This document shows, one piece after another, positions 19,620-35,549 of a stretch of DNA of 64,000 nt. The position numbers and the translations under genes are program-made. How positions within the stretch are numbered: the first letter of the stretch is position 1; the number at the start of each line of letters is the position of its first letter. Origin of the DNA: Provencibacterium sp. (GTDB taxonomy: Bacteria > Bacillota > Clostridia > Oscillospirales > Ruminococcaceae); contig JAAWDS010000006.1 of assembly GCA_022793895.1 (NCBI GenBank), forward strand, positions 124,001 to 188,000, in the 5' to 3' direction. The notes below the pieces were generated by a model that had not been told where the DNA came from, searched no databases, and worked only from the letters and a program-made list of their open reading frames with translations.

Positions 19620-21935
19620 TCAGGACATCCCCTTATCCAGCTTGTCCAGATAGGCCAGCACATCGGCGCACAGCTCTTCCGCGATCTCGGCGGATCGGCT
19701 TTCCGCAAAAACCCGGATGCGATCTCCGCGCTTGTTCGGACGTATCCGGGCTACGCCCAGCTTGTGCTGCAAAAGTAAGCCCTCCCCAACGGCCTTTCCC
19801 CTCTCTGCGAGCTTATCCATCAACACCGCCGGGGCCTGTATGCCCGCCAACTCTCCTTGACGGGTCCCGTAATCGGGAACCGCTTGAGAAAGAGCCGATA
19901 GGGACATACCCGATACCTTACAGAAAGAGAGCAGCCGCACCGTCATCATCAGCGCATCCCGAAAATATCCCTGCCGTGCCGCAAGCGAACGCGCTCTGGC
20001 GTCCGTCTCCCCGGCCGGACAATCCAAGTACCGGTAGACCTTCCTGCCGTGTTCGTCCGCCAAGCGATCGATGAGCTGCGGCGCTGTGTGGCTGACAGCC
20101 ACATCCCGCTTCTGAAGAAACTCGGAAAGCGCCAGCATACACTGCAACCGGCCAAACAGGAGTTCCCCTGCATCGGAATCTGTTACCGCTACCTGCATAC
20201 CGTCCGGATCGATGCGGAAAAGAGGACCGCCTTCCGTTTCGCACCCCAGCCCCTGCAACGTATCGCACATCAACGCAGCAATCGATCGATTGGCGCTCTG
20301 CACCCGCGCCTGCATGCCATTCAGCCCATAAGGAGCCTGTCGGAGAAGGTGGGAAGCATAGAGCGCCTGCATGCCGTCCATGCAGATCCGTTCTCCAAAA
20401 TGAGCGGCATCGGCCCTGGCAAATTCTCCGCGGGAAAGAAAGCCTTCTATTTTGCGTTCTACTTCGCGCGCGCAGCCCAGGGCGTACCGTCCAAGCAAAG
20501 TTACGGCCCCCTCTGACGGCCCGCTCCCAATATAAATGCCCAGCTCCCCTCCGGTATAGGTCAAACTCCACTGAAAGAGCGAGCGATAGACGGGTCCGAA
20601 ATCCATCACCTGTGCGCCGCTGGATTGGATCCCAGCCGACAGCGCTTGAAGCAGCGCCCGCGCCGGACGCGTATCGCAGCAGGCAATGGCGACCGGCTGC
20701 CGCTGATCGATCGATCCAACGGCACAGCCCAACCGTGCAAAGAGCTCAGGGGTCAGCTCAACGCCGATCTCTCCGACTATTCCCTCATCGTCAAACAGGC
20801 CCTCGCGTCCGCTTTGGGTGATCAGGTGGCGCGAAACCACCGCGCCATCCGGCGTATGGCGGTAAGGCCAGATCTTCACACCCGGCTCCACCTTCGCCGA
20901 ATTGCCTACAACGGCGTGCGCCCCGGCAACGCTGCCTTGGTGCATGGTCGCCCCCCATTTTACCGAAGCGCCTTTGCAAACCAACGCATGATAGAGCCTG
21001 GCGGATTCGCCGATAAACGCCCCTTCCAGCAGCACGCCTCCCTCAATTTGCGCGTTCGCCCCCACCGAGACCTCATCCTCCAGTACGCAGGGCCCATAAA
21101 TCTGCGCGCCATGGCCGATCCGGACGTTCTTTCCAATATAAACCGGCCCATGCAAGCGGTAATCCCCGGCGGGTCTGTCGCCGGTAAAGAGGTTCCCATC
21201 GGCGTCAACCGGTCCGGATAAACCGCCTATCCGCCCCTGAAGCAGATCATATTGGCATTGTAAATAGCTTTGCAGCTCCCCAATATCACACCAATAGCCT
21301 GCCGTCCGGTAGGTGGACAGACGTTTATGCTGCGCCAGCATACGGGGGAAAAGATCCCCTGCAAAATCGTATTTTTCACCCGGCGGGATCAGTTCCAGCG
21401 TTTCCGGACTGAGGATATAGATGCCGGTATTAGCCAGGTTCGTAGTCGCTTGTGAAAGGGGCGGTTTTTCGATAAACCCGGTGACAAGCCCTTCCTCGGA
21501 CGTCAGGATCAACCCATATTCACGCGGATCCTCTACCTGTTTGACAACCAGGGTAGCGGCTGCGCCGCTGTCGCGGTGTCTTTTCAGTGCGGCGGACAAA
21601 TCGATGTCACAAAGCGCATCCCCGCTCATCACCAAAATTTCCTCGTTGGCCAGTCCTACCGCGTTTTTAACGCCGCCCGCCGTCCCCAGAGGATGTTCTT
21701 CCCCTGCCAAACGGATCGAAAGGCCATCCGGCTGGCGAGCCTCCAAATAGGCGAGCAGCTCGTTCTGTAAATATCCGGCCGACAACACACAGTCCGTAAC
21801 CCCATGTCTTTTTAAAAGCGCCAGGATATATTCAATCACTGGTTTCCCGCAGAGCCGTGTCATCGGCTTAGGCGTGTCGAGCGTCAGCGGCCGGAGGCGG
21901 CTGCCTTCTCCCCCCGCCATAATCACTGCTTTCAT
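19620..21935 (-). CDS. Mannose-1-phosphate guanylyltransferase-like nucleotidyltransferase fused to left-handed beta-helix and phosphomutase-like domains
   Basis: MKAVIMAGGEGSRLRPLTLDTPKPM nucleotidyltransferase motif, hexapeptide repeats, PGM/PMM-like C-terminal region with altered catalytic motif; start set at MKAVIMAGG. Confidence 0.85.
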   Translation of the reverse strand: MKAVIMAGGEGSRLRPLTLDTPKPMTRLCGKPVIEYILALLKRHGVTDCVLSAGYLQNELLAYLEARQPDGLSIRLAGEEHPLGTAGGVKNAVGLANEEILVMSGDALCDIDLSAALKRHRDSGAAATLVVKQVEDPREYGLILTSEEGLVTGFIEKPPLSQATTNLANTGIYILSPETLELIPPGEKYDFAGDLFPRMLAQHKRLSTYRTAGYWCDIGELQSYLQCQYDLLQGRIGGLSGPVDADGNLFTGDRPAGDYRLHGPVYIGKNVRIGHGAQIYGPCVLEDEVSVGANAQIEGGVLLEGAFIGESARLYHALVCKGASVKWGATMHQGSVAGAHAVVGNSAKVEPGVKIWPYRHTPDGAVVSRHLITQSGREGLFDDEGIVGEIGVELTPELFARLGCAVGSIDQRQPVAIACCDTRPARALLQALSAGIQSSGAQVMDFGPVYRSLFQWSLTYTGGELGIYIGSGPSEGAVTLLGRYALGCAREVERKIEGFLSRGEFARADAAHFGERICMDGMQALYASHLLRQAPYGLNGMQARVQSANRSIAALMCDTLQGLGCETEGGPLFRIDPDGMQVAVTDSDAGELLFGRLQCMLALSEFLQKRDVAVSHTAPQLIDRLADEHGRKVYRYLDCPAGETDARARSLAARQGYFRDALMMTVRLLSFCKVSGMSLSALSQAVPDYGTRQGELAGIQAPAVLMDKLAERGKAVGEGLLLQHKLGVARIRPNKRGDRIRVFAESRSAEIAEELCADVLAYLDKLDKGMS

Positions 21936-22208
21936 GGAAAAAATCCGTCCTTTTTTCGTTGATACCTTATTATGGCTCAACATGAGACCCTTTAAGCAGG
22001 GATCCCGTTTTCTTTCCCCCTCTAAAAAATAACGGACGGAAACCGGCTGTTAAAAAGCTCCCGGCTGCTCCGGAAACTCCATTTTTATAGGGCCCCATCC
22101 CCATTCTAATCAGGAATAGGGCGCCTTCATTTTATGATGGGTTGAATCTCATCTCCCCTTTTTCCGCTCCGGAACAGCAGGAGAAAATCTAGCTTTTTCG
22201 ACATAAAT

Positions 22209-22361
22209 GTAGAGGTTTTTGCTACAAATTTTGTGCCACACTCTTAGTTCACTATTTTATCACATTTAATAGAAATGTAAATATAAAACTGAAAAAATAA
22301 TCAAAAAATGTTTAACAAATACCATTTATCGTTAAAAAGTATTTGTAGCAAAAACCTCTAC
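22209..22361. repeat. Perfect 21-bp inverted repeats (22209-22229 and 22341-22361) flanking a 111-bp AT-rich segment; candidate invertible promoter or paired operator
   Basis: GTAGAGGTTTTTGCTACAAAT ... ATTTGTAGCAAAAACCTCTAC, exact reverse complements, between divergent genes. Confidence 0.8.
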
Positions 22362-22477
22362 GTTTCTGCTACATAACGGAGCCAACGAGTCATTTATGAC
22401 GGCTTATCCTGGAACGCGTTGAAACATTCCTTTTCTCCGGCCATGAACGAAACACAACAATGAAGGAGGAACCTCCC

Positions 22478-23146
22478 ATGAGAAAAATTTTGTCGGGCGT
22501 GATGGCTGCAGCCCTCTGCCTGAGCTTCTCTGTTTCCGCTTTTGCTGCATCGGGCTACAGCTCCACGAGCAGCACGCCCAGCGTTGCGCAGGTTGAAACG
22601 CAAGCAGAGACGGCTATCAACGATGCCATTTCCGCCGGCGCTGCCGCTGCGGTCGTTTCTTTTCGGAACGTCACCCGCCTGAGCGCGGAAGCGATCCAAT
22701 CGGTTGCCGATAAAGCGGCGGCGGCTGACGTTGCCTCGACCATCCATGTGGACAAGGTAGTAGGCGGAGCGGTTGTCAACCGTTGGTACATCGATCCGGC
22801 GAAGGCCGGCAACCTGACCGGTACCCTCAACCTGGATGTTAAGGTTGACTCGAAGTCGGTCGCTTCGACCGTGAACCTGTTCGATCGGTATTTCACCAAT
22901 GAGATCTCGGTTGTCAGCCTTGGCCAGCAGGGATCGTTTGGCATGGATATGAGCCTGGCTGTTAAGGTAGATCTCCAGAATCTGGATACCAGCAAGCTGG
23001 TCTTCTATTCCTATGACAAGGCGACCAACACCTTCATGCAGATTCCGGCGGCGGCATATTTCATCGACGTAAACGGCTACCTGCATTTCACCACCGCAGT
23101 CGGCGGCGATATCCTGATCACCGACTCGGTCTTGACCAAAAAGTAA
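22478..23146 (+). CDS. Small secreted protein of unknown function
   Basis: Signal peptide MRKILSGVMAAALCLSFSVSAFAA; good RBS (aaggagg); no recognisable domain. Confidence 0.75.
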   Translation: MRKILSGVMAAALCLSFSVSAFAASGYSSTSSTPSVAQVETQAETAINDAISAGAAAAVVSFRNVTRLSAEAIQSVADKAAAADVASTIHVDKVVGGAVVNRWYIDPAKAGNLTGTLNLDVKVDSKSVASTVNLFDRYFTNEISVVSLGQQGSFGMDMSLAVKVDLQNLDTSKLVFYSYDKATNTFMQIPAAAYFIDVNGYLHFTTAVGGDILITDSVLTKK

Positions 23147-23268
23147 TCTTGACCTAACTCTTCGATCATGGATAAGGCAAATCTCCGGGGATTTGTCAGG
23201 CAGAAAAGGAATGTTTCAGCGCGTTCCCGCAAATAGCAAGGACTATCCGTTACACAGGGGGCAAGGTT

Positions 23269-24513
23269 TTGGCAGTTTATTATGGAGTACTCACCGTCTT
23301 AGCGCTTGGCGCAGGCATATTGTGTTGGAGCGGCCTTTCCCGATGGAAGAGCATTCTGTTCGGCTTCGCCGCTTTACTGTTGTTGGGAGGGCTCGCGGCA
23401 TTCCGTTATGCCGTAGGCTATGATTATACCCATATCTATGTCCCGCTCTATTTTCAGACCCTCCGGGATGATCTTTCGATCTTGGGAAGCGTTCATGAAC
23501 CGGGTTTCATGCTGTTAGAGAAGCTCCTCCTGTTTTTTACGCCCAACTACCAAGCGCTCTTTATCGCCACCTCTTTTCTCATATACGGCCTAACCTTTTA
23601 TTACTATTGGAAGTTTTCTCCCAATATCTGCTTAAGCATTCTAATCTTTCTCCTCTTAGGCCAGTATTATAGTTCAATGAACTTTGTGCGCCAGTCCATG
23701 GCTGTAGCGATCACATTGTTTGCCGTTCCTTTCCTCCAAAAACGAAGGCTGGCTGCCTATCTTCTCATCATTCTGCTGGCGGCGCTTTTCCACAAATCTG
23801 CCCTGATTATGATTCCTTTCTATTTTATCAATCTTATCCCAGTCAGCTGGTACACCCTCCCCGTCTATACGCTTGTAACCGCTGTCGCCTATCTCCTGAG
23901 CGGCAAGGTGGTTGCTTTCGTTACCCGGTTTTGGTATTCCGGCTATGGGGAACCGGACGGAGAGGTTATTTCTGCCTTTCCCTTTCCGTTTACCATTTCA
24001 ATGGCAATCGCCTTTGCGCTGCTTTTTGGCGGTTATAAGCGGCTTCGGAGCCTAAACCGCAGTTACTACATATATGTCAATTACGCGTTCTTCGCCCTGT
24101 TTTTCGTCTTGATGGGAACGCGTATAGCGATTCTCGATCGCTTCTCTTCTTATTTTGACGCCATTCTTCCAGTCGCTCTGCCTCTGCTGATTCAAGAGCC
24201 GGAAGATTCAAAGGCGGCAGAGGATGCTTCCCCCGCTCTCCTGCCGCACACAAGGCTCTCTCTGCGCTCCTCCATTCTATTGGGCGGTATTTTGATTTGG
24301 GGGGCCGCCTTTCATCAGTATGTGTTAATGAAAGACAACCATGCCGTAGTGCCCTACCGCTGCATTTTCAATCAGCCGGTTTATCAGGAATATACCGAGG
24401 GCCTGAAGGACGATCCTATCGGAGCTTGGGAAAAGCTGTTGATTCATTGGGCGGCCGGAGAAATCGATATACTGCCCGAACAGCTCTTGGCGGTTCCGGA
24501 GGATCCAGCCTAA
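23269..24513 (+). CDS. EpsG family membrane protein (putative polysaccharide polymerase)
   Basis: Multi-TM protein; EpsG-like features (RYAVGYDYTHIYVPLY, FVRQSMAVAITLFA); TTG start after AGGGGG. Confidence 0.8.
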   Translation: MAVYYGVLTVLALGAGILCWSGLSRWKSILFGFAALLLLGGLAAFRYAVGYDYTHIYVPLYFQTLRDDLSILGSVHEPGFMLLEKLLLFFTPNYQALFIATSFLIYGLTFYYYWKFSPNICLSILIFLLLGQYYSSMNFVRQSMAVAITLFAVPFLQKRRLAAYLLIILLAALFHKSALIMIPFYFINLIPVSWYTLPVYTLVTAVAYLLSGKVVAFVTRFWYSGYGEPDGEVISAFPFPFTISMAIAFALLFGGYKRLRSLNRSYYIYVNYAFFALFFVLMGTRIAILDRFSSYFDAILPVALPLLIQEPEDSKAAEDASPALLPHTRLSLRSSILLGGILIWGAAFHQYVLMKDNHAVVPYRCIFNQPVYQEYTEGLKDDPIGAWEKLLIHWAAGEIDILPEQLLAVPEDPA

Positions 24514-24537
24514 ATCATAAGCGGAGGAAGCCGGCGG

Positions 24538-25926
24538 ATGATCAAGGAAAACCAGAGAGCTCTGAACACACTGCTGCTGATTGCCGACGGGGGCTGCATA
24601 TTGGGTTCTCTGCCCGCAGCCTACTGGATCCGCTTCTCGCTATTTTCCTCGCATCCCGATCACCTCCCCTTTCAGTCCTATCTCTGGTTATTGCCGTTCG
24701 TTTTGTGCGCCCACATATTCTTTGGGTACTTATTGGGCTTATACCGTTCGAAAAGAAGCAATCCGTTCCGGTGGGAAGTCCGTCTCCTACTGCGGATCGA
24801 TCTGGCGCTCCTCCTCCTGGTTTTAATGGCGCTCTATCTTCTGCATCAGGAATATTATTCGCGCCTATGCCTATTTTTCTGGTTTGTATTGATTCCGGCG
24901 TCAATGTGCGCAGAACGTTCGGCTGTCCGCCTTACGCTGCGCGCTCTGCGGAAAAAAGGATACAACCTAAAATACATCCTTCTGATTGGGAACGGCGAGC
25001 TCGCCGCGTCGTTTGCTGCAAAGGTAAAACGAAATCCCCAGTTCGGTTTCCGCTTTGGAGGCTGTCTGTGCAACGGGATCCAAGATGCCTCCTCCTTTCA
25101 AGGAATCCCCATTTTAGGAGATTATGGAGCTCTGTCCGGGTTGCTCGACCAGGGCGGGATCGATGAGGTCGTCGCTGCGCTGGAGCTGAATGAATACCCA
25201 AGCCTTCAGCAGATTATCTGCCTGTGTGAAAAGCACGGCGCTAAAATCAACATTGTTCCCGCTTATTTTAAATATCTTCCCGCCCGCCCCTATTGGGATG
25301 AATTTGACGGGCTTCCAGTGATGACCCTGCGGAAGATTCCGCTCTCCAATCCCTGGAATGCGGCGGTAAAGCGCCTATTCGATATTGCGGTCTCCCTTCT
25401 GGCGCTGGGCCTCTCCTCCCCCGTTATGGCTGCCGTCGCTCTGGTGATCCGTCTCAGCATGCGGGAACCGCCCATCTACCGCCAGGAACGGATAGGCTTC
25501 AATTGCAAGCCCTTTGTTATGTATAAATTCCGTTCCATGCGAACGGCAGATACCGTAAATCCCGGCTGGACAGGGAAACACGATCCGCGCCGCACACCCT
25601 TCGGCGCATGGATCCGCAGGTTCAGCATTGACGAACTCCCGCAGTTTTATAACGTGCTGAAAGGGGATATGAGCGTGGTCGGCCCCCGTCCGGAAATCCG
25701 CTGCTATGTCGAGCAATTCCGCGAGAGCATCCCGCGCTACATGGTCAAGCACCAGGTAAAGCCTGGGATTACCGGCTTGGCGCAAATCCGGGGCTTGCGG
25801 GGGGATACCTCCATCGAAGAGCGTGTACGGCAGGATCTTTACTATATCGAAAACTGGTCGGTATGGATGGATATTTATATTGTGCTAAAGACCGTTACCA
25901 AAGCATTTTACAACCAAAACGAATAA
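24538..25926 (+). CDS. Undecaprenyl-phosphate sugar phosphotransferase (polyprenyl glycosylphosphotransferase)
   Basis: C-terminal bacterial sugar transferase domain: KRLFDIAVSLLAL, YKFRSMR, SIDELPQFYNVLKGDMSVVGPRPE, VKPGITGLAQI. Confidence 0.93.
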   Translation: MIKENQRALNTLLLIADGGCILGSLPAAYWIRFSLFSSHPDHLPFQSYLWLLPFVLCAHIFFGYLLGLYRSKRSNPFRWEVRLLLRIDLALLLLVLMALYLLHQEYYSRLCLFFWFVLIPASMCAERSAVRLTLRALRKKGYNLKYILLIGNGELAASFAAKVKRNPQFGFRFGGCLCNGIQDASSFQGIPILGDYGALSGLLDQGGIDEVVAALELNEYPSLQQIICLCEKHGAKINIVPAYFKYLPARPYWDEFDGLPVMTLRKIPLSNPWNAAVKRLFDIAVSLLALGLSSPVMAAVALVIRLSMREPPIYRQERIGFNCKPFVMYKFRSMRTADTVNPGWTGKHDPRRTPFGAWIRRFSIDELPQFYNVLKGDMSVVGPRPEIRCYVEQFRESIPRYMVKHQVKPGITGLAQIRGLRGDTSIEERVRQDLYYIENWSVWMDIYIVLKTVTKAFYNQNE

Positions 25927-25929
25927 GCG

Positions 25930-27231
25930 ATGGGGGCAGACATGATAGCTGAATTCATTGGGCTGGGAAGCGGCTGGATCTTTGAGGAAGCTGCCTACCA
26001 GGGGTTAAACGCTTTTGAGCGTGAGCTCGGACTCCTTCAAATAAAGGTGAGCGGGAAGAGCAAAGTAGAAAACTGCTGCCGCGAGCTTTTTTATATCCTG
26101 CGCAGCGCCATCCAGCGCAGCGATATCATCTTTATCTTAGGCGGACTGGGAACCGGCGATCAGCGGGTGACGCAGCATGTTCTGACCACCGGGCTCTCCA
26201 TTCCTCTGGTCCGGAATCAGGACGCCTACCAGAATGCGTCTTCCTACTTTACACGTCAGGAAAAGGACCAGCCTTTTTTGGAGGAATATGCCGGGATGCC
26301 GGAGGGGAGCATCGTTTTCCCAAACCCAAACGGCCCCTTTACTGGGAGCGTTTTGGCCCGGAAAGAACAGTGCATCTTCTCGCTGCCGGAGCGGCCGGAG
26401 GAGCTGTTTCCTCTCCTGCTGGACCATGTGCTCCCCTTTCTTTCAGATTATGTCCAGGTTCCGCTCCGTACCCAGTCGTTCAGCGTTTGGGGGGCTGAAC
26501 CGGCGGCGCTGGAAGCGCTGTTCCCCTCCCCCGCGGAGGAACGCCTGATAACAGCCTGCTATCTTACCCGCCAGCATCCGGCACGGGCGCTCATCCGCTT
26601 GACGGCCTTCCAGGATGGAGCTACGACGCTGGAGGCCCAGGCGAAGGAGCTGCGCTCCTATTTGGAGCAGTCTTTCCCCGGCTGTATATTTGAAGCGGAG
26701 GAGGGCCTCTCGATGGAGGCGATCGCCGCTCTCTGCCGGAAAAAAGGACTCCGCATTACCGGCGCGGAATATGGGACAGACGGCCGGTTGGATAAGGCGC
26801 TGCACCAAACGCAAAAATGGTTAAGCTGCTACGCCTATGATCTGGATTCGGTAAGCTCAAAGGTTCTTACAAAGGTATTTGAGCTGCCGGCCTCCTTTCA
26901 GTCTATGGAGACGGCACGGCTGGCGGCTCATATTGCTTGCAGCGCCAGAGCGATAGAAGGAAGCGGATTGGGGATCGCCCTGTGCGCCGGCGGGGAACGC
27001 GCAGCCGGATACACGATGGCGGCGACGGATGGGACGATGCTTCTCTATGAAGAGAAATTAGCGCCCGCACAGATCCCCATGGCCGCAGCCCTGCTGCTGC
27101 TCCGATTTACGAGTATGTCTCCCTCCATTTTGAGTGGCGCGGTATCCTGCGAAGCCTTCTTCAAAAAAGGCGCGCAGGATACCGCGCCGGGTAGATGGAA
27201 AGGGATTTGGAAAAAAATTCTGGAGGGCTGA
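25930..27231 (+). CDS. CinA-like protein (divergent competence/damage-inducible protein A family)
   Basis: MoCF-biosynthesis-like N-terminal motif IIFILGGLGTGDQRVTQHVL and CinA-like organisation; motif divergent. Confidence 0.65.
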   Translation: MGADMIAEFIGLGSGWIFEEAAYQGLNAFERELGLLQIKVSGKSKVENCCRELFYILRSAIQRSDIIFILGGLGTGDQRVTQHVLTTGLSIPLVRNQDAYQNASSYFTRQEKDQPFLEEYAGMPEGSIVFPNPNGPFTGSVLARKEQCIFSLPERPEELFPLLLDHVLPFLSDYVQVPLRTQSFSVWGAEPAALEALFPSPAEERLITACYLTRQHPARALIRLTAFQDGATTLEAQAKELRSYLEQSFPGCIFEAEEGLSMEAIAALCRKKGLRITGAEYGTDGRLDKALHQTQKWLSCYAYDLDSVSSKVLTKVFELPASFQSMETARLAAHIACSARAIEGSGLGIALCAGGERAAGYTMAATDGTMLLYEEKLAPAQIPMAAALLLLRFTSMSPSILSGAVSCEAFFKKGAQDTAPGRWKGIWKKILEG

Positions 27232-27260
27232 ACACAGCCCTCTAAAAGAGGGAGGTTTCT

Positions 27261-28082
27261 ATGGCTTCTCCTGCAATCGATGTCCTTATGGGCGTATACC
27301 GGCCGGACCGGCCGATGCTGCGCCGCGCCATCCGTTCCATTTTGGATCAGACCTGGAAGAGCCTGCGCCTTATTATCTGCGACGATGGATCGCCGGACGA
27401 TACCTATTCATGGCTGGAGCATTACGCCGCGGCCTCCGGCCGTATCCTGCTGCTGCGCCACGAACAGAACCGCGGGCTTGCCGCGGCGCTCAACACCTGT
27501 CTGCGCTATGCCTCGGCGGACTATGTCGCCCGTCAGGATGCGGATGACTATTCGCTGCCCGACCGGCTGGAAAAACAGGTGCAGTTTCTGCAAGAGCATC
27601 CGGCTTTCTCCTTTGCCGGGAGCTTCTTATATCTTTTCGATGAACAAGGGGTCTGGGGGCGGAAGCGCTATCCCCTTTACCCTCAAAAGAAGGACTTTCT
27701 CTTTTCCATTCCCTATATGCACGGCGCACTGATTTTCCGGCGCGCCGCCCTCCTTTCCTGCGGCGGCTACCAGGTAAGCCGGATCACGCGCAGGGCGGAG
27801 GATTATGAGCTGCTCATGCGCATGTATGCCCAGGGGCACCGGGGAGCGAACCTGCCGCTTGCGCTCTATGCGTTCCGGGAGGACGACTCGGCCCGGCTGC
27901 GGCGCAAATACCGCTACCGCATCGATGAAGCGCAGGTGCGTTGGGAGGGATTCCGGCGCATGGGCATCGGGACGGAGGGGCTGCCCTATATTGTGAAGCC
28001 GCTGATAGTCGGGCTTATACCGTCCGGCCTTTTGAAGAGGCTCAAGGAACGCCGTTATCATTTGCAATTCGAACGGAGGTGA
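27261..28082 (+). CDS. Glycosyltransferase family 2
   Basis: DVLMGVYRPDRPMLRRAIRSILDQTW, DDGSPDDT, ARQDADDYSLPDRLEKQ. Confidence 0.92.
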   Translation: MASPAIDVLMGVYRPDRPMLRRAIRSILDQTWKSLRLIICDDGSPDDTYSWLEHYAAASGRILLLRHEQNRGLAAALNTCLRYASADYVARQDADDYSLPDRLEKQVQFLQEHPAFSFAGSFLYLFDEQGVWGRKRYPLYPQKKDFLFSIPYMHGALIFRRAALLSCGGYQVSRITRRAEDYELLMRMYAQGHRGANLPLALYAFREDDSARLRRKYRYRIDEAQVRWEGFRRMGIGTEGLPYIVKPLIVGLIPSGLLKRLKERRYHLQFERR

Positions 28083-28090
28083 GGCCGGTT

Positions 28091-28867
28091 TTGCGTTCTA
28101 TTCTGGAGGATTTCAAAAAATACGGATACTTTTTCGCCGAGCTTGTCTCACGCGATTTCAAAAGCAAATACTATAAATCCTTTCTTGGGATTTTATGGAC
28201 CATTCTGCATCCGCTGCTGCGGATGTGCATCATGACCATCGTGTTTTCCACGCTATTCCGGCGTAATATTCGGAACTTTCCGATTTACTATCTGACCGGG
28301 TTCTTGGTTTTTCACCTGTGTACCGACGCCTCCACCCAATCGCTGCACGCGGTAACGGGAAATTCCGGGCTGATCCTAAAAATCCACATTCCCAGCTATT
28401 TTTTTGCCTTGTCCAAGGTAGCGCTGGTGCTTATCAACACCTTGTTTTCCATGATTTCGCTGGTGCTTATCATGCTGATCACACGCGCCCCCATCCATTG
28501 GACTTTTCTTCTCTTCCCCCTTCCGCTTTTTTTGACGCTGCTCTTTGCCGCGGGACTCTCGATGGCCCTCTCAGCGATGGCGGTCTATTTTCGGGATCTT
28601 TTCCACCTCTATAGCCTGGTGACGCTGGTATGGACCTATCTGACCCCGCTTTTCTATCCCATCTCGATTATTCCGGAGCAATGGCTTTTCCTGATAAAGC
28701 TCAACCCCATGTACCACTACGTAAGTCTGTTTCGAGCTTTGGTTTATGAAGGGGTTCTCCCCTCCGGCGAAATGTGGCTCATCACCTCCCTCATAAGCGT
28801 GGCGGTGCTGGTGGGGGGAGGTTATATCTTCCACCGGCTGAAGAGCAATTTTTTCCTGCATCTATAG
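28091..28867 (+). CDS. Polysaccharide ABC transporter permease (Wzm/TagG-like)
   Basis: ABC-2 type permease: FFAELVSRDFKSKYYKSFLGILWTILHPLLRM; paired with downstream ATPase. TTG start inferred, alternative GTG at 28079. Confidence 0.88.
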   Translation: MRSILEDFKKYGYFFAELVSRDFKSKYYKSFLGILWTILHPLLRMCIMTIVFSTLFRRNIRNFPIYYLTGFLVFHLCTDASTQSLHAVTGNSGLILKIHIPSYFFALSKVALVLINTLFSMISLVLIMLITRAPIHWTFLLFPLPLFLTLLFAAGLSMALSAMAVYFRDLFHLYSLVTLVWTYLTPLFYPISIIPEQWLFLIKLNPMYHYVSLFRALVYEGVLPSGEMWLITSLISVAVLVGGGYIFHRLKSNFFLHL

Positions 28868-28917
28868 CGCCGGAAAACGGTCCCCGGCCAAATAACAGAG
28901 AAAGGAGGGCGGAATTT

Positions 28918-29661
28918 ATGGAAGAGGTCATCCGGGTAGAGGATGTTTGGATGCTCTTTAACCTAAGCCGGAAAAGAGAGGAACGGGTGAAAGAATATGT
29001 CATCGATATGCTCAAAGGGCAGCTCTTTTTTGATAAATTCTGGGCGCTAAAGGGAGTGGGCTTCCGTTTGGAGCAAGGCGATTCGATGGGGATTGTCGGG
29101 CTCAACGGCTCCGGGAAATCCACCCTCTTAAAGCTGATTGCCGGAATCATGGAGCCCACCGTTGGAAGGGTTTACACGAAAGGGCTGATTGCGCCGCTGC
29201 TGGAGCTAGGAGGCGGCTTCTCCGGAAATATGACGGCGCGGGAAAACGTCTTTCTTTCCGGATCGATGCACGGCCTATCCAGACGGCATCTATTGGACAA
29301 ATATGAAGAGATCGTCGAGTTTTCCGAGCTGGGACCCTTTATGGATGTGCCGGTGCGCAACTTCTCCTCCGGCATGCGATCCCGGTTGGGCTTCGCCCTC
29401 GCCACCACTATCCACCCGAATATCCTGATTTTGGACGAAGTGCTTGCCGTAGGCGACGCGAAGTTCCGTTCCAAAGCGATGGCGCGTATGCAAGGGATCA
29501 TCAATAGCGGAGCAACGCTGCTGTTCGTCTCCCACAGCATCGATCAGGTCGCCAAGCTATGCAACAAGGCTCTGTGGCTGGATCATGGGCACGTCCGAAT
29601 GCTTGGAAGCGCAAAGGACGTCTGTGCAAAATACAAAGCCTTCTGCGCGCAGAAAACCTAG
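28918..29661 (+). CDS. Polysaccharide ABC transporter ATP-binding protein (Wzt/TagH-like)
   Basis: Walker A GLNGSGKSTLLKLIAG, signature FSSGMRSRLGFALA, ILDEVLAVGDAKF. Confidence 0.94.
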   Translation: MEEVIRVEDVWMLFNLSRKREERVKEYVIDMLKGQLFFDKFWALKGVGFRLEQGDSMGIVGLNGSGKSTLLKLIAGIMEPTVGRVYTKGLIAPLLELGGGFSGNMTARENVFLSGSMHGLSRRHLLDKYEEIVEFSELGPFMDVPVRNFSSGMRSRLGFALATTIHPNILILDEVLAVGDAKFRSKAMARMQGIINSGATLLFVSHSIDQVAKLCNKALWLDHGHVRMLGSAKDVCAKYKAFCAQKT

Positions 29662-29676
29662 CGGGAGGGGGATGGA

Positions 29677-30828
29677 ATGAGAAAAAAAGTCTTGGTCTGC
29701 GCCTCCACGGCGGAGCACTTGGAGCGTTTTCATCTGCCCTATCTGGCGTATTTCCGGCAGGAGGGGTGGGAGGTTCACACCGCCAGCAAGGGGATCCCGC
29801 TCTCTTCGGATATAGAAAAGGCTTGGGATATCCCCTTTCAAAAGGAGCTGCTCTCCCTCGGAAATTTAAAGCAGCTGTTCCGTCTTTTAGGGATTTTTAA
29901 AAGGGAGCAATATGACTTACTGCTGATACATACCAGTTTAGCCGCAGCCTGGTGCCGCCTTGCTTTTTTCCGTCTTCTCTGTCCCCGCACCCGGTTGGTC
30001 TATGTGTGCCACGGCTATTTTATGGAAGCTACTTCCGAAGGCATTCTCAAGAAAAATCCCCGGAGTCTATTTTATTTGACGTGCGAACGGCTGTTGGCGG
30101 GACGGACCGATCTACTAATGCTGATGAACCGCACCGATTGGGAAATTGCGCGGCGCTACAAACTTTGCCGGCGCCCCGTCTTTATTAACGGCATGGGACT
30201 GGATGCGCGGCGCTACCATGCAGCCGGGCCGGAAACGGCCGCCCGGCTGCGGAAAAGCTGGAGAGCGGCGGAGCATACGCTGGTGTTCCTGTGCGTGGGC
30301 GAATTTTCCCCGCGCAAGAACCAGCTGGAGCTGCTCCGCGCCTTTTCGCGTCTGGCGGGCCAAGCAGAAGACGTCCGCCTAATTCTGGCCGGCAGCGGCG
30401 CGCTGGAGCCGGTCTGCCGCGCCTTTGTTCAAGAAAACCGCTTAGAGAAACGCGTGCATTTTGCCGGACAAATCTCAGATATTTCCCCTTACTTCTGTGC
30501 GGCGGACGCCTTAGTTTCTTCCAGCCGGTCCGAGGGGCTCCCCTTCAATATCATGGAGGCGCTCTATTTTCATCTCCCCGTCATCGCCAGCCGAGTTAAG
30601 GGGCACACCGATCTCATCCGGCACCGGGAGAACGGTCTCATCTATGATCCGGGAAATCCGGAAGCACTGTCCGCAGCGCTTCAGAGCTTTATCCGGCAGC
30701 CGGAGCTGCGAGCCTCCCTTCAAGAGAGGGCAAAGCTAGATCCGAAGTATCTTTACCCCAACGCGGGCGCCCTAATTTTTCAGGCGCTTTCTAGGGAAGA
30801 AACGGAAAGGATGAAAGAACATGTATGA
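29677..30828 (+). CDS. Glycosyltransferase family 1/4 (EpsD-like)
   Basis: N-terminal HLERFHLPYLAYFRQEGWEVHTAS, C-terminal SSSRSEGLPFNIMEAL. Confidence 0.9.
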   Translation: MRKKVLVCASTAEHLERFHLPYLAYFRQEGWEVHTASKGIPLSSDIEKAWDIPFQKELLSLGNLKQLFRLLGIFKREQYDLLLIHTSLAAAWCRLAFFRLLCPRTRLVYVCHGYFMEATSEGILKKNPRSLFYLTCERLLAGRTDLLMLMNRTDWEIARRYKLCRRPVFINGMGLDARRYHAAGPETAARLRKSWRAAEHTLVFLCVGEFSPRKNQLELLRAFSRLAGQAEDVRLILAGSGALEPVCRAFVQENRLEKRVHFAGQISDISPYFCAADALVSSSRSEGLPFNIMEALYFHLPVIASRVKGHTDLIRHRENGLIYDPGNPEALSAALQSFIRQPELRASLQERAKLDPKYLYPNAGALIFQALSREETERMKEHV

Positions 30829-31942
30829 TTATTTGATTGTAGGCGCCGGTCTTTTCGGTTCCGTGTTCGCCCACGAGGCGGCGCTCTACGGAAAAAGCTG
30901 CCTAGTCATTGATAGGCGTCCCCACATTGGCGGCAACGTTTACACCGAGCCGATGCACGGCATCCCTGTCCATCAGTATGGGGCGCATATCTTTCACACC
31001 TCCAATCCGCAGATATGGGAGTATGTCCAGCGGCTGGGGGAATTTCATCCTTACATCAACTCCCCTATCGCCGTCTATCGCGGGGAGCTCTACAACCTTC
31101 CATTTAATATGAACACCTTCAGCCGCATGTGGGGGATCCGTCGGCCGCACGAAGCCAAACGGATCATCGCCGAGCAGGCGCAAAAGGAGAACATTGCCAA
31201 CCCGCAGAATTTGGAGGAGCATGTCCTCTCGATGGTAGGACGCGACATCTATGAAAAGCTGGTCAAGGAATACACCGAGAAGCAATGGGGCCGCCCCTGC
31301 TCGGAGCTTCCCCCTTTTATCATCAAGCGCCTCCCCATCCGGTTCACCTATGACAACAACTATTTCAACGACCGCTATCAGGGGATCCCGGCCGGCGGAT
31401 ATACCCTTCTCATTGAAAAGCTGCTGGAAAAAGCGGAGGTCCAAACCTCAACCGATTTTTTTGAGCTGCGCCGGCAAGGCGGTAAGCCCGCGAAAAAAAT
31501 TCTCTATACCGGCATGCTGGACGCCTACTTTGATTACCGGTTAGGGCCGCTGGAATACCGCTCCCTCCGCTTTGAAACCAGCTATCTGCCGGAAGAGAAC
31601 TATCAGGGAAACGCCGTCGTCAACTATACCTCGGCAGAGGCGCCCTATACGCGGATCATCGAACACAAGCACTTCTATTCCAGTACCCAGCCCGGCACGG
31701 TGATCACCAAGGAATACCCTTGCGAATGGACGCCGGGCGCGGAACCCTACTACCCGATCAACGACGCCCGCAACAATGCTCTGGCCGAACAATACCGCCA
31801 GCTTGCCGCCAAGGAGCCGGATGTCCTGTTCGGCGGGCGGCTGGCCGATTACCAATATTACGACATGGACAAAACCATCGAAGCGGCGCTCCGTTTGGCC
31901 GGACGGGAATTCGGGGAAGATGGAAAGGGGCTAAAGGCGTGA
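30821..31942 (+). CDS. glf: UDP-galactopyranose mutase
   Basis: YDYLIVGAGLFGSVFAHEA FAD motif, IGGNVYTE, YGAHIFHT, FNMNTF, EKQWGRP. Confidence 0.97.
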   Translation: MYDYLIVGAGLFGSVFAHEAALYGKSCLVIDRRPHIGGNVYTEPMHGIPVHQYGAHIFHTSNPQIWEYVQRLGEFHPYINSPIAVYRGELYNLPFNMNTFSRMWGIRRPHEAKRIIAEQAQKENIANPQNLEEHVLSMVGRDIYEKLVKEYTEKQWGRPCSELPPFIIKRLPIRFTYDNNYFNDRYQGIPAGGYTLLIEKLLEKAEVQTSTDFFELRRQGGKPAKKILYTGMLDAYFDYRLGPLEYRSLRFETSYLPEENYQGNAVVNYTSAEAPYTRIIEHKHFYSSTQPGTVITKEYPCEWTPGAEPYYPINDARNNALAEQYRQLAAKEPDVLFGGRLADYQYYDMDKTIEAALRLAGREFGEDGKGLKA

Positions 31943-33768
31943 AGCTACAGAACATCCTCTTCCCCCGCCTGGAGATATGCCGTGAAGAAGAGCTGTATTT
32001 CCGGCGGGATGCGGCGGAGGAGATTCTCTGTAAAGAAGGAGAGGTCCGGTTCCCTGTGGGAGGCGTTCTCCGCTTTGACACCTACTTTAACGCCCTTTCA
32101 ATTGGAAAATGGCAGGAATATGCGGCTGTATCCGAGATACAGCTCCATCTGGAGTTCTGCGGCGGGTTCCGCATCTCCCTTTTCAATGAAGAGGAGTGGG
32201 AAGAGGAGGTAAGGCGGGCCGACTTGGGAGAACATACCTTCCGATCACCGGAAAGACGCATGCAAACGGTTGCCTTTCCGCCTTTACCCGCCCATAGTTG
32301 CGGGCTACTGGGCTTTTCGTTGACGGCTACCGATCCGGACAGCCGCTTCTACGGCGGATATTACAGCGGAACTCCGGCTACCCCTATCCGTCCGGTGAAG
32401 ATAGGGGTAGTCATCTGTACCTTCCGCCGGGAGGCATTTGTTCAGAAAAACCTTCTCTCCCTGCGTGACGCCTTCTTTAATGGGAACTGCCCGGAAATGG
32501 AGGATAAGTTGGAATTTTTCATCGTTGATAACGCCCAAACGTTTACCCTCCCCTTTTCAGATCCCCGGCTGCACCTCTTCCCAAACCAAAACACAGGCGG
32601 TTCAGGCGGCTTCACGCGGGGCCTCTTGGAGCTGCTACAGGCGGATCCCTCCGCGGGGTTCACCCACGCGCTTCTCATGGATGACGACATTGTTTTGGAG
32701 CCGGAAGCCGTCTACCGCACCTACTGCCTGCTGGCCCTGCAAAAGGAAGCCTATACCGCTTCCTTTGTCGGAGGGGCGATGCTGCGTTTGGACCGTCCGG
32801 CCATGCAAGCCGAATCCGGAGCCCGGTGGAACGCGGGCGCGCTCATCTCCTTAAAAGCAGGGCTGGATCTGCGAAGGCTGGAGGACTGCCTTCAGAACGA
32901 GCGGACGGATCCGGCGGATCGCGCGGATTACAACGCCTGGTGGTATTGCTGCTTCCCGCTGGAAACCGTCCGCACACGCGGACTGCCCCTTCCGCTCTTT
33001 ATCCGCGGAGATGATGTGGAGTTCGGCTTACGCCACATGCAGAGGCTGATTCAAATGAACGGAATCTGTGTTTGGCATGAGCCCTTTGAAAACAAGCTCT
33101 CCTCCAGTCTCTATTATTACATCTATCGAAACCGGCTGATTGACAATGCGGCGCGGGGGATTTCCTATGGAAAGCGGGAGGCGTGGAGAGACCTTGCGCG
33201 CCCGTTTCTCCGGGAGCTTCTGTGTTACCGGTTTTTGAACGCCCGGCTGCTCCTGCGCGCCGCCGCGGATTTCCTACTCGGAACCCGTTGGCTGGAGGCG
33301 CAGGATGGCGAACGGCTGCATCAGGAGATCCTAAACAGCGGCTACCGGCTTCTTCCCCTTTCGGATTTAAAGCGGGAATGGCCCGATCCAGTTCCTGTTC
33401 CAGATAAAGCGCTCTCGAACTACCGGGAGAGCCGTTTCCAGCGTTGCTTCCGGCTGTTGACCCTGAACGGCAATCTCCTACCCGCCAGCCGGGCAGCGGC
33501 TGCGCCCGCTTTTGAAGCCTCCCCAATCTATTTTTACCGTGTGAAAAAGGCGCTCCATCTCGATGCGCAGGGAGAGAAGGGATTTGTCACCGGAAGGAGC
33601 CTCAAGGAAGCGTTCGCCTGCCTGTCCGCCTTTTTTCGCATAACCTTCCGGATCCTCCTTTTTTATGACCATGCGGTAGACGATTACCTCCGAAACGCCG
33701 GACGGTTGACCACCCCGGCCTTTTGGAACCGCTATCTTGGACGGCAAAATCATGAGGTGTCGCCATGA
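31939..33768 (+). CDS. GlfT2-like galactofuranosyltransferase, paralog 1
   Basis: N-terminal beta domain (FDTYFNALSIGKWQEY), GT2 motifs NTGGSGGFTRG, LLMDDDIVLEP, RGDDVEFGLR, WHEPFE; GTG start overlaps glf stop. Confidence 0.88.
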   Translation: MKLQNILFPRLEICREEELYFRRDAAEEILCKEGEVRFPVGGVLRFDTYFNALSIGKWQEYAAVSEIQLHLEFCGGFRISLFNEEEWEEEVRRADLGEHTFRSPERRMQTVAFPPLPAHSCGLLGFSLTATDPDSRFYGGYYSGTPATPIRPVKIGVVICTFRREAFVQKNLLSLRDAFFNGNCPEMEDKLEFFIVDNAQTFTLPFSDPRLHLFPNQNTGGSGGFTRGLLELLQADPSAGFTHALLMDDDIVLEPEAVYRTYCLLALQKEAYTASFVGGAMLRLDRPAMQAESGARWNAGALISLKAGLDLRRLEDCLQNERTDPADRADYNAWWYCCFPLETVRTRGLPLPLFIRGDDVEFGLRHMQRLIQMNGICVWHEPFENKLSSSLYYYIYRNRLIDNAARGISYGKREAWRDLARPFLRELLCYRFLNARLLLRAAADFLLGTRWLEAQDGERLHQEILNSGYRLLPLSDLKREWPDPVPVPDKALSNYRESRFQRCFRLLTLNGNLLPASRAAAAPAFEASPIYFYRVKKALHLDAQGEKGFVTGRSLKEAFACLSAFFRITFRILLFYDHAVDDYLRNAGRLTTPAFWNRYLGRQNHEVSP

Positions 33769-35549
33769 CCCTATTTGAAATTACCCTCCCCGGCTATCCG
33801 GCGGCCGCTACAACGGAACTGTATTACCGTGCAGTACCGGACAGCGTCCGGATAGAGAACGGCGCTCTGCGCCTAAAAGCCGGTTCCACGGTTACCTTCG
33901 ACACCTATTTTAATCTTTTCCCCTATCGCGCCTATCGCCGTTACGCTTCATTGGAGAGAGTTGGACTCTGCCTGCGGGCTGAGGGATGCCTCCGCATCCG
34001 AATCCGTCATTGTCACGGCGCGCAGCGCTGCGAGGAGGACGCTGTCCTACTGGAAGAAGAGATGAAGGAGGGCGGCAGCCAGACTTTCCCTTTTTCACTT
34101 TCCTCTCTCGAAACGAAAGAACCAGGCTTCCTTTATCTGGAGGTGGAGGCAGTGTCCAGCGCCGTTTTCAGCGGAGGCTCCTTCTGTGCGCTTCACATTC
34201 GCCGCCTTCCGGAATTCCGGCTGGCTGCCGTTATCTGCACCTACCGGCGCGAGCCCTATTTAACTCAGAATCTTGCGCAAATTTCGGAATACCTCTCCCT
34301 GCCGGAGCACCGGTGGCTGCGTGAAAAGCTCGATATCTGGGTGGTAGATAACGGGCGTACCGTTCGTGCGGATCAGATACCGGCGGGGGTGACGCTCCTC
34401 TCTTCCGGCCGCAACCTGGGAGGCAGCGGAGGATTTGCGCGGGGGATGTGGGAGATAGGGCATAGCGCGCGGGGATATACGCACTTCTGTCTCATGGACG
34501 ACGATATCGTTTTAGATCCGGGAATTCTCCTGCGCACGGCGGCTTTTCTGGAGCTGTCGGGAACGCGCTACCCTGATCTCGCCCTCGGCGCGGCCATGAT
34601 CTCATTAGACCGGCCCTGGGAGCAATATGAGATGGGGGGCGGGTGGGATGGGTACCGCTGTTCCAGCTTCGGCCAGGGGGCCGACCTTCGCCGGAGAGAA
34701 ACCCTTCTCCAAAATGAGCAGGCTGCCTCTCCCCTCTTCGGCGCCTGGTGGTATTTGTGCATGCCCTGTTCTTTCATCCGCCGGTTCGGCCTGCCCTTTC
34801 CCTTCTTTGTCAAGGGCGATGATATCGATTATGGCCTACGAACCGCCTATCCCCTTCTTTTAATGAATGGAATGGGTATTTGGCACGAAGATTTTTCAGG
34901 GAAAGATTTCGGCATTAGCGAATACTATGTGAAGCGCAACGAGCTGATCCTCTGTGCGCTTCACACCCGGCGGCCCAGCCTGCTGAAAAACTATCAAAAG
35001 CTGGTTTTCGCGGCCGGGAAGCAGCTCCTTCTGCGGCGGTACGCCGTTGTCCGTCTGCTGCTGCGGGCCTACAAGGACTTTTTGCTGGGAGGCGAAGCCT
35101 TTTTGGAGCTTGATCAGGAGCAGCAGCGCCGGGAGCTGGGGGCCGGCATGCCAGAGCTGCTGGGGGAAAAGGAATTGGTTCAGACCTTTGGAATCTCGTT
35201 GGGAGCCTTTCCAGTAAAGGATTGTTCCGGCAAGCTGGACTGGCGTATCCGAATAAAAGCGATCGCCGCCTATCTGCTGCCGGGATCACAGAAACGGCCG
35301 CTGCGGTGTATTGAGGTGTCCTCCTGTTCCCCTGAAGATTTTCTCTACTCCGGACCGGTTTTGCAGTACAGCCGAAAGCTACGCGCCGGATTTCTCTCTC
35401 CTCTGCGCAAAAGAGAACTGTGGACAACGGCCGCCGCGCTGGTTGATATGCTTTGGCAGATGCTTCTGCATTATCAAAGCGCCTGCCGGTCGTTCCGTCG
35501 GATCTATTCGAAGGCGGCTTCTGAGGAGTACTGGAGAGGGAAGTTTTAG
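33765..35549 (+). CDS. GlfT2-like galactofuranosyltransferase, paralog 2
   Basis: Same architecture: FDTYFNLFPYRAYRRY, NLGGSGGFARG, CLMDDDIVLDP, KGDDIDYGLR, WHEDF; overlaps previous CDS. Confidence 0.87.
   Translation: MTLFEITLPGYPAAATTELYYRAVPDSVRIENGALRLKAGSTVTFDTYFNLFPYRAYRRYASLERVGLCLRAEGCLRIRIRHCHGAQRCEEDAVLLEEEMKEGGSQTFPFSLSSLETKEPGFLYLEVEAVSSAVFSGGSFCALHIRRLPEFRLAAVICTYRREPYLTQNLAQISEYLSLPEHRWLREKLDIWVVDNGRTVRADQIPAGVTLLSSGRNLGGSGGFARGMWEIGHSARGYTHFCLMDDDIVLDPGILLRTAAFLELSGTRYPDLALGAAMISLDRPWEQYEMGGGWDGYRCSSFGQGADLRRRETLLQNEQAASPLFGAWWYLCMPCSFIRRFGLPFPFFVKGDDIDYGLRTAYPLLLMNGMGIWHEDFSGKDFGISEYYVKRNELILCALHTRRPSLLKNYQKLVFAAGKQLLLRRYAVVRLLLRAYKDFLLGGEAFLELDQEQQRRELGAGMPELLGEKELVQTFGISLGAFPVKDCSGKLDWRIRIKAIAAYLLPGSQKRPLRCIEVSSCSPEDFLYSGPVLQYSRKLRAGFLSPLRKRELWTTAAALVDMLWQMLLHYQSACRSFRRIYSKAASEEYWRGKF

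Follow-up and report, generated by a model that had tools for sequence, protein, structure and literature searches.

The stretch of Provencibacterium sp. DNA analysed here, hereafter the window, comprises 64,000 nt of contig JAAWDS010000006.1 (positions 124,001-188,000); coordinates without a locus name refer to it. A short AT-rich intergenic region lies between a minus-strand gene on its left (19620-21983, start probably at 21935), whose product carries NTP_transferase, hexapeptide and phosphoglucomutase/phosphomannomutase domains, and a plus-strand gene on its right (22478-23146) encoding a secreted protein with no Pfam match, homologues of which occur in 27 of 299 family genomes. The latter is the first gene of the right-hand cluster and is followed on the same strand by polysaccharide genes (23269-35549) for an EpsG family protein, a Bac_transf sugar transferase, glycosyltransferases, an ABC-2 exporter with its ATPase and UDP-galactopyranose mutase, ending with two long glycosyltransferase-like ORFs that were judged from sequence only. 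Within the intergenic region, GTAGAGGTTTTTGCTACAAAT occurs exactly at 22209-22229 on the plus strand and at 22341-22361 on the minus strand; the perfect 21-bp inverted repeats around 111 bp that an earlier note on this DNA had described are thus correct to the nucleotide. The pair can be extended to 22202-22229 and 22341-22368 (28 nt, 93% identity, 111 nt between the arms), and its identity runs on inward (AAAT) and breaks off outward. Both repeats are likely recombination sites, and the interior (22230-22340, 111 bp, 22% GC) is the presumed invertible segment.

As expected of an inverton, these inverted repeats surround a short segment and exceed what chance produces. Local Markov resampling of the AT-rich 280 bp, repeated 2000 times, gave inverted-repeat scores of at most 14, compared with 22 observed; since resampled scores never came near the observed value, the repeat pair is not due to chance. 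No further copy of GTAGAGGTTTTTGCTACAAAT with three or fewer mismatches was found within the window, and none in 100 shuffles. The 21-mer is present as one pair only in the 3.07-Mb genome; it is absent from the 40 relatives examined, neither the scan of other species genomes nor that of viral contigs turned it up, and the plasmid and phage collections gave no match. Likewise, no second genome with the window locus was found among the 40 relatives or in the species and viral collections; in a same-genus genome, the ortholog of the left gene has another right neighbour, without such repeats.

We then scored promoter-like sites across the region. The best of them, TTTACA-N16-TAAAAT with a TG before the -10 element (22254-22281, minus strand), is of the sigma-70 type by consensus, lies inside the segment and points outward, to the left as assembled, which bears out the leftward promoter read in the earlier note. 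The rightward ATCACA-N17-TATAAA proposed alongside it did not hold up, being weak and absent from the scan list. A weaker site known by consensus match only, TTAACA-N16-TATTTT (22026-22053, minus strand), precedes the left gene and falls outside the segment. The scan returned no plus-strand site at 21850-23350, which is weak evidence given a shuffled expectation of 1.3 sites. The segment core also aligns with DNA ahead of ordinary genes in other members of the family, so that TTTACA-N16-TAAAAT looks like the common promoter type of the clade. Weak core matches in other family genomes were set aside, as they look like ordinary promoters, for instance upstream of a MinD-like gene.

The repeats have an internal symmetry of their own. 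The GTAG-N9-CTAC dyad reported earlier in each of them is real, and the copy in the right repeat sits within a longer, near-perfect 30-bp dyad (TGTAGCAAAAAC-CTCTAC-GTTTCTGCTACA, 22344-22373), in which 12-bp arms flank a 6-bp centre and 11 of 12 arm positions pair; the left repeat retains one good arm only. These dyads, together with the lack of a recombinase adjoining the segment, favour the main rival to an invertible promoter, namely that a fixed promoter stands between two opposed operators (GTAG-N9-CTAC or the longer TGTAGCA dyad) and that binding or looping by a regulator controls both gene sets with no inversion. However, an operator pair needs shared half-sites only, whereas the two repeats agree at 21 of 21 positions, through an asymmetric centre that includes the spacer AGGTTTTTG, and the long dyad is incomplete on the left. 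Moreover, no other copy of the dyad, such as a regulon would have at further genes, scored above chance anywhere in the genome, although a regulator may be dedicated to this single locus. Weakened in this way, the paired-operator explanation appears unlikely, while deserving more weight than any of the other rivals.

On the minus strand, the 30-bp dyad is in addition scored as a terminator-like hairpin, with 12 pairs and a T-rich tail, and folding of the whole segment is far better than that of shuffled sequences (z -6.2), as is, to a lesser degree, that of the paralogous segment described below (z -3.4). Such values would suit an inverted repeat serving as a hairpin or terminator, that is as RNA structure or insulator, rather than as a recombination site. 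Good folding is nevertheless expected of any perfect inverted repeat, and the best promoter lies inside the loop, so that a transcript would include one arm only. Rfam returned a chance match and no family, and a known structured RNA was accordingly rejected. Taken together, we consider a purely structural role very improbable.

In the species collection, the same dyad was found in 49 stretches, mostly palindromes of Poribacteria and Caldilineales, none of which has a convincing inverted partner at inverton spacing; viral contigs contained none. The Candidatus Poribacteria and Caldilineales genomes concerned (L177-L223) are rich in palindromes such as TGTAGCACAAACTTTCCAGTTTGTGCTACA, which look like a dispersed repeat, and in another genome (G108, L130 1434-1727) several TGTAGCAAAAAA dyads with differing loops are crowded into one intergenic region before rimO.

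Recombinase searches of the genome gave seven tyrosine matches, one of them a fragment, and nine serine matches, none of which adjoins the window segment. Of these, two lie nearest: a large serine recombinase (566 aa; Resolvase, Recombinase and zinc-ribbon domains) encoded at 58833-60533, 36 kb from the segment and still within the window, beside which no inverted repeats were found, and an Xer-like tyrosine recombinase encoded on the same contig at a distance of about 86 kb. With no recombinase abutting the segment, flipping it would require an enzyme working in trans, in the manner of RecV and Mpi.

The genome holds a sister of the segment. Window positions 22246-22313 align to C26 19100-19167 (genome G000) with 85% identity over 68 bp (E about 1e-15), part of which may reflect a shared promoter consensus. 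The corresponding segment at C26 (19064-19225; L008 9565-9726) has the same core and the same promoter between 26-nt arms that lie 110 nt apart, match each other at 81% and are unlike the window arms. It is situated between a large serine recombinase gene, whose stop codon is 34 bp away, and a gene for an AraC-type regulator with a sugar ABC-transporter operon, toward which its promoter points. In the two loci the interior has thus been kept while the arms have changed together within each locus, a pattern that fits recombination sites whose centres need match only their partner and that does not fit a transposon. A MITE or other mobile element was also rejected, since the two paralogous segments do not end in the same repeats and the repeat ends show no sign of a target-site duplication. 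Taken alone, the C26 repeat is only moderately significant, with 19 of 2000 resamplings scoring as high, and its arms are imperfect, so that C26 may be no inverton at all or one that has decayed. The large serine recombinase next to it was rejected as the cognate enzyme, because its relatives (35-47% identical) lack comparable inverted repeats near their 3' ends; the adjacency seen at C26 is therefore not a family trait.

A clearer case of recombinase and repeats side by side was found elsewhere in the same genome. At C33 (L039 1041-1443), a perfect pair of 22-bp repeats lies beside a glycosyltransferase gene and directly adjoins the stop codon of a gene for a tyrosine recombinase (286 aa); the repeats enclose a strong TTGCAT-N17-TATAAT promoter pointing away from the glycosyltransferase gene, and C33 is a better-supported inverton than the window segment. 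At C21, a paralogous recombinase lies beside a polysaccharide-export operon with a weak repeat pair only, which scores just as high as the best of 300 shuffles, and C21 was thus excluded from the inverton count. Relatives of the C33 recombinase (E<=1e-30) are present in 70 of 249 family genomes and 47 of 126 genera, and inverted-repeat pairs at inverton spacing lie beside the gene at 20 of the 30 loci examined, most of these pairs containing the core ACAWAA-N6-TTWTGT. The interiors often hold extended -10 promoters, and the neighbouring genes, judged by their translations, include ones for surface proteins, signal peptidases, glycosyltransferases and ABC exporters. In many of the repeat pairs the inner flanks are shared and the outer ones are not, and homologous interiors with differing centres, the pattern of the window and C26 pair, recur in this class. 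Across the family it amounts to a tyrosine-recombinase lineage with linked promoter invertons in many genera (L062-L080) and a site consensus of TACAACATAA-N6-palindrome. The interior of L068 aligns only in reverse with those of L065 (91 vs 18) and L067 (73 vs 20), while L062, L065, L066 and L067 are mutually forward-aligned; homologous segments therefore occur both ways round, relative to the recombinase gene, in different species. This comparison of alignments shows inversion for the linked class, not for the window locus. The linked class in addition offers a site consensus and cognate enzymes that are open to direct testing.

The window segment resembles this class in having perfect inverted repeats (about 15-28 nt in the class) with identity that tends inward rather than outward, surrounding AT-rich intergenic DNA that holds an extended -10 promoter near surface genes. 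In contrast, its interior is shorter (111 bp vs 200-360 bp), no recombinase gene abuts it, and its repeats lack the ACAWAA-N6-TTWTGT core that most repeat pairs of the class carry. Its half-sites do resemble the class half-site, with scores of 16.7 and 12.8 compared with a random 99th percentile of 9.0 (spacings 5-10), but they stand 10 bp apart, whereas class members with sites have a 6-bp spacing. Judged by these features, the window segment falls outside the C33-type class.

Among described systems, the switches of C. difficile have 21-bp inverted repeats around segments of 154 and 195 bp, and the cwpV and flagellar switches are inverted by RecV, a tyrosine recombinase acting in trans on repeats that vary by locus (PMC5903667, PMC2784873, PMC5386303). 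The window segment is like the cwpV and flagellar switches in its 21-bp repeats, in its size and in its short intergenic position upstream of surface genes. The analogy to cwpV drawn in the earlier note is nevertheless inexact, because the invertible segment of cwpV (195 bp) contains no promoter and works through an orientation-dependent terminator (PMC2784873), whereas the window segment holds a promoter-like site. The parallel with Bacteroides drawn in the same note is closer in logic: according to two reports, invertible promoters lie ahead of the capsular polysaccharide loci of Bacteroides fragilis and are served by one enzyme in trans, the serine invertase Mpi (PMC5386303, PMC5903667), and the layout predicted here is likewise an invertible promoter before polysaccharide genes. 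Unlike the window repeat, which is unique in its genome, several of the Bacteroides fragilis loci share a repeat core consensus.

We conclude that the segment at 22209-22361 is probably an invertible promoter served by a recombinase acting in trans; as a candidate, it adds another case to an already known kind of DNA switch. The earlier proposal of an invertible switch draws strength from the perfect repeats with their matching asymmetric centre, from the position of the sole good promoter inside them, from a paralogue with arms of its own and from recombinase-linked invertons in the genome and family, and is weakened by the missing adjacent recombinase. Recombination at the window locus, the enzyme and the effect on transcription are what we infer from this pattern. 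A recombinase presumably encoded elsewhere in the genome would exchange strands at the identical repeat centres and so turn the 111 bp around. As assembled, the promoter would fire left into the nucleotidyltransferase gene, leaving the polysaccharide cluster with no promoter-like site near its start; after inversion about the centre at 22285, it would drive transcription rightward, into the secreted-protein gene and on through EpsG and the polysaccharide cluster, and the predicted outcome is on/off variation of a surface glycan.

Another possibility is that the segment is a former inverton now locked, its recombinase lost or blind to the repeats and its promoter fixed on the left gene. This would account for the absence of an adjacent recombinase and for repeats whose site type is not that of the recombinases found next to invertons in this lineage. 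The 21-bp repeats are nevertheless still perfect, which argues for recent use or continued constraint, and we consider a locked state improbable. Also improbable is a broader proposal, in which the window segment and C26 would form a distinct promoter-inverton subfamily with its own site architecture, flipped in trans, possibly by the C26 large serine recombinase, and in which the neighbouring repeat-bracketed secreted-protein gene would be a second unit capable of inversion at this polysaccharide locus. Phase variation of surface glycans is well documented for Bacteroidota and, to our knowledge, much less so for uncultured clostridial families. If the window segment flips, as we consider probable, it would provide a further case of polysaccharide switching in such families.

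As a separate observation, the secreted-protein gene itself lies between inverted repeats (22411-22436 and 23202-23227, 25 of 26 positions matching, 765 nt apart). In another genus, a homologue with 52% identity, again next to EpsG, lies between imperfect repeats of 45 nt that are 789 nt apart (L137 1432-1476 and 2266-2310), and the arms around both genes have a TRAAAYATTCYTTTTC-like motif in common.
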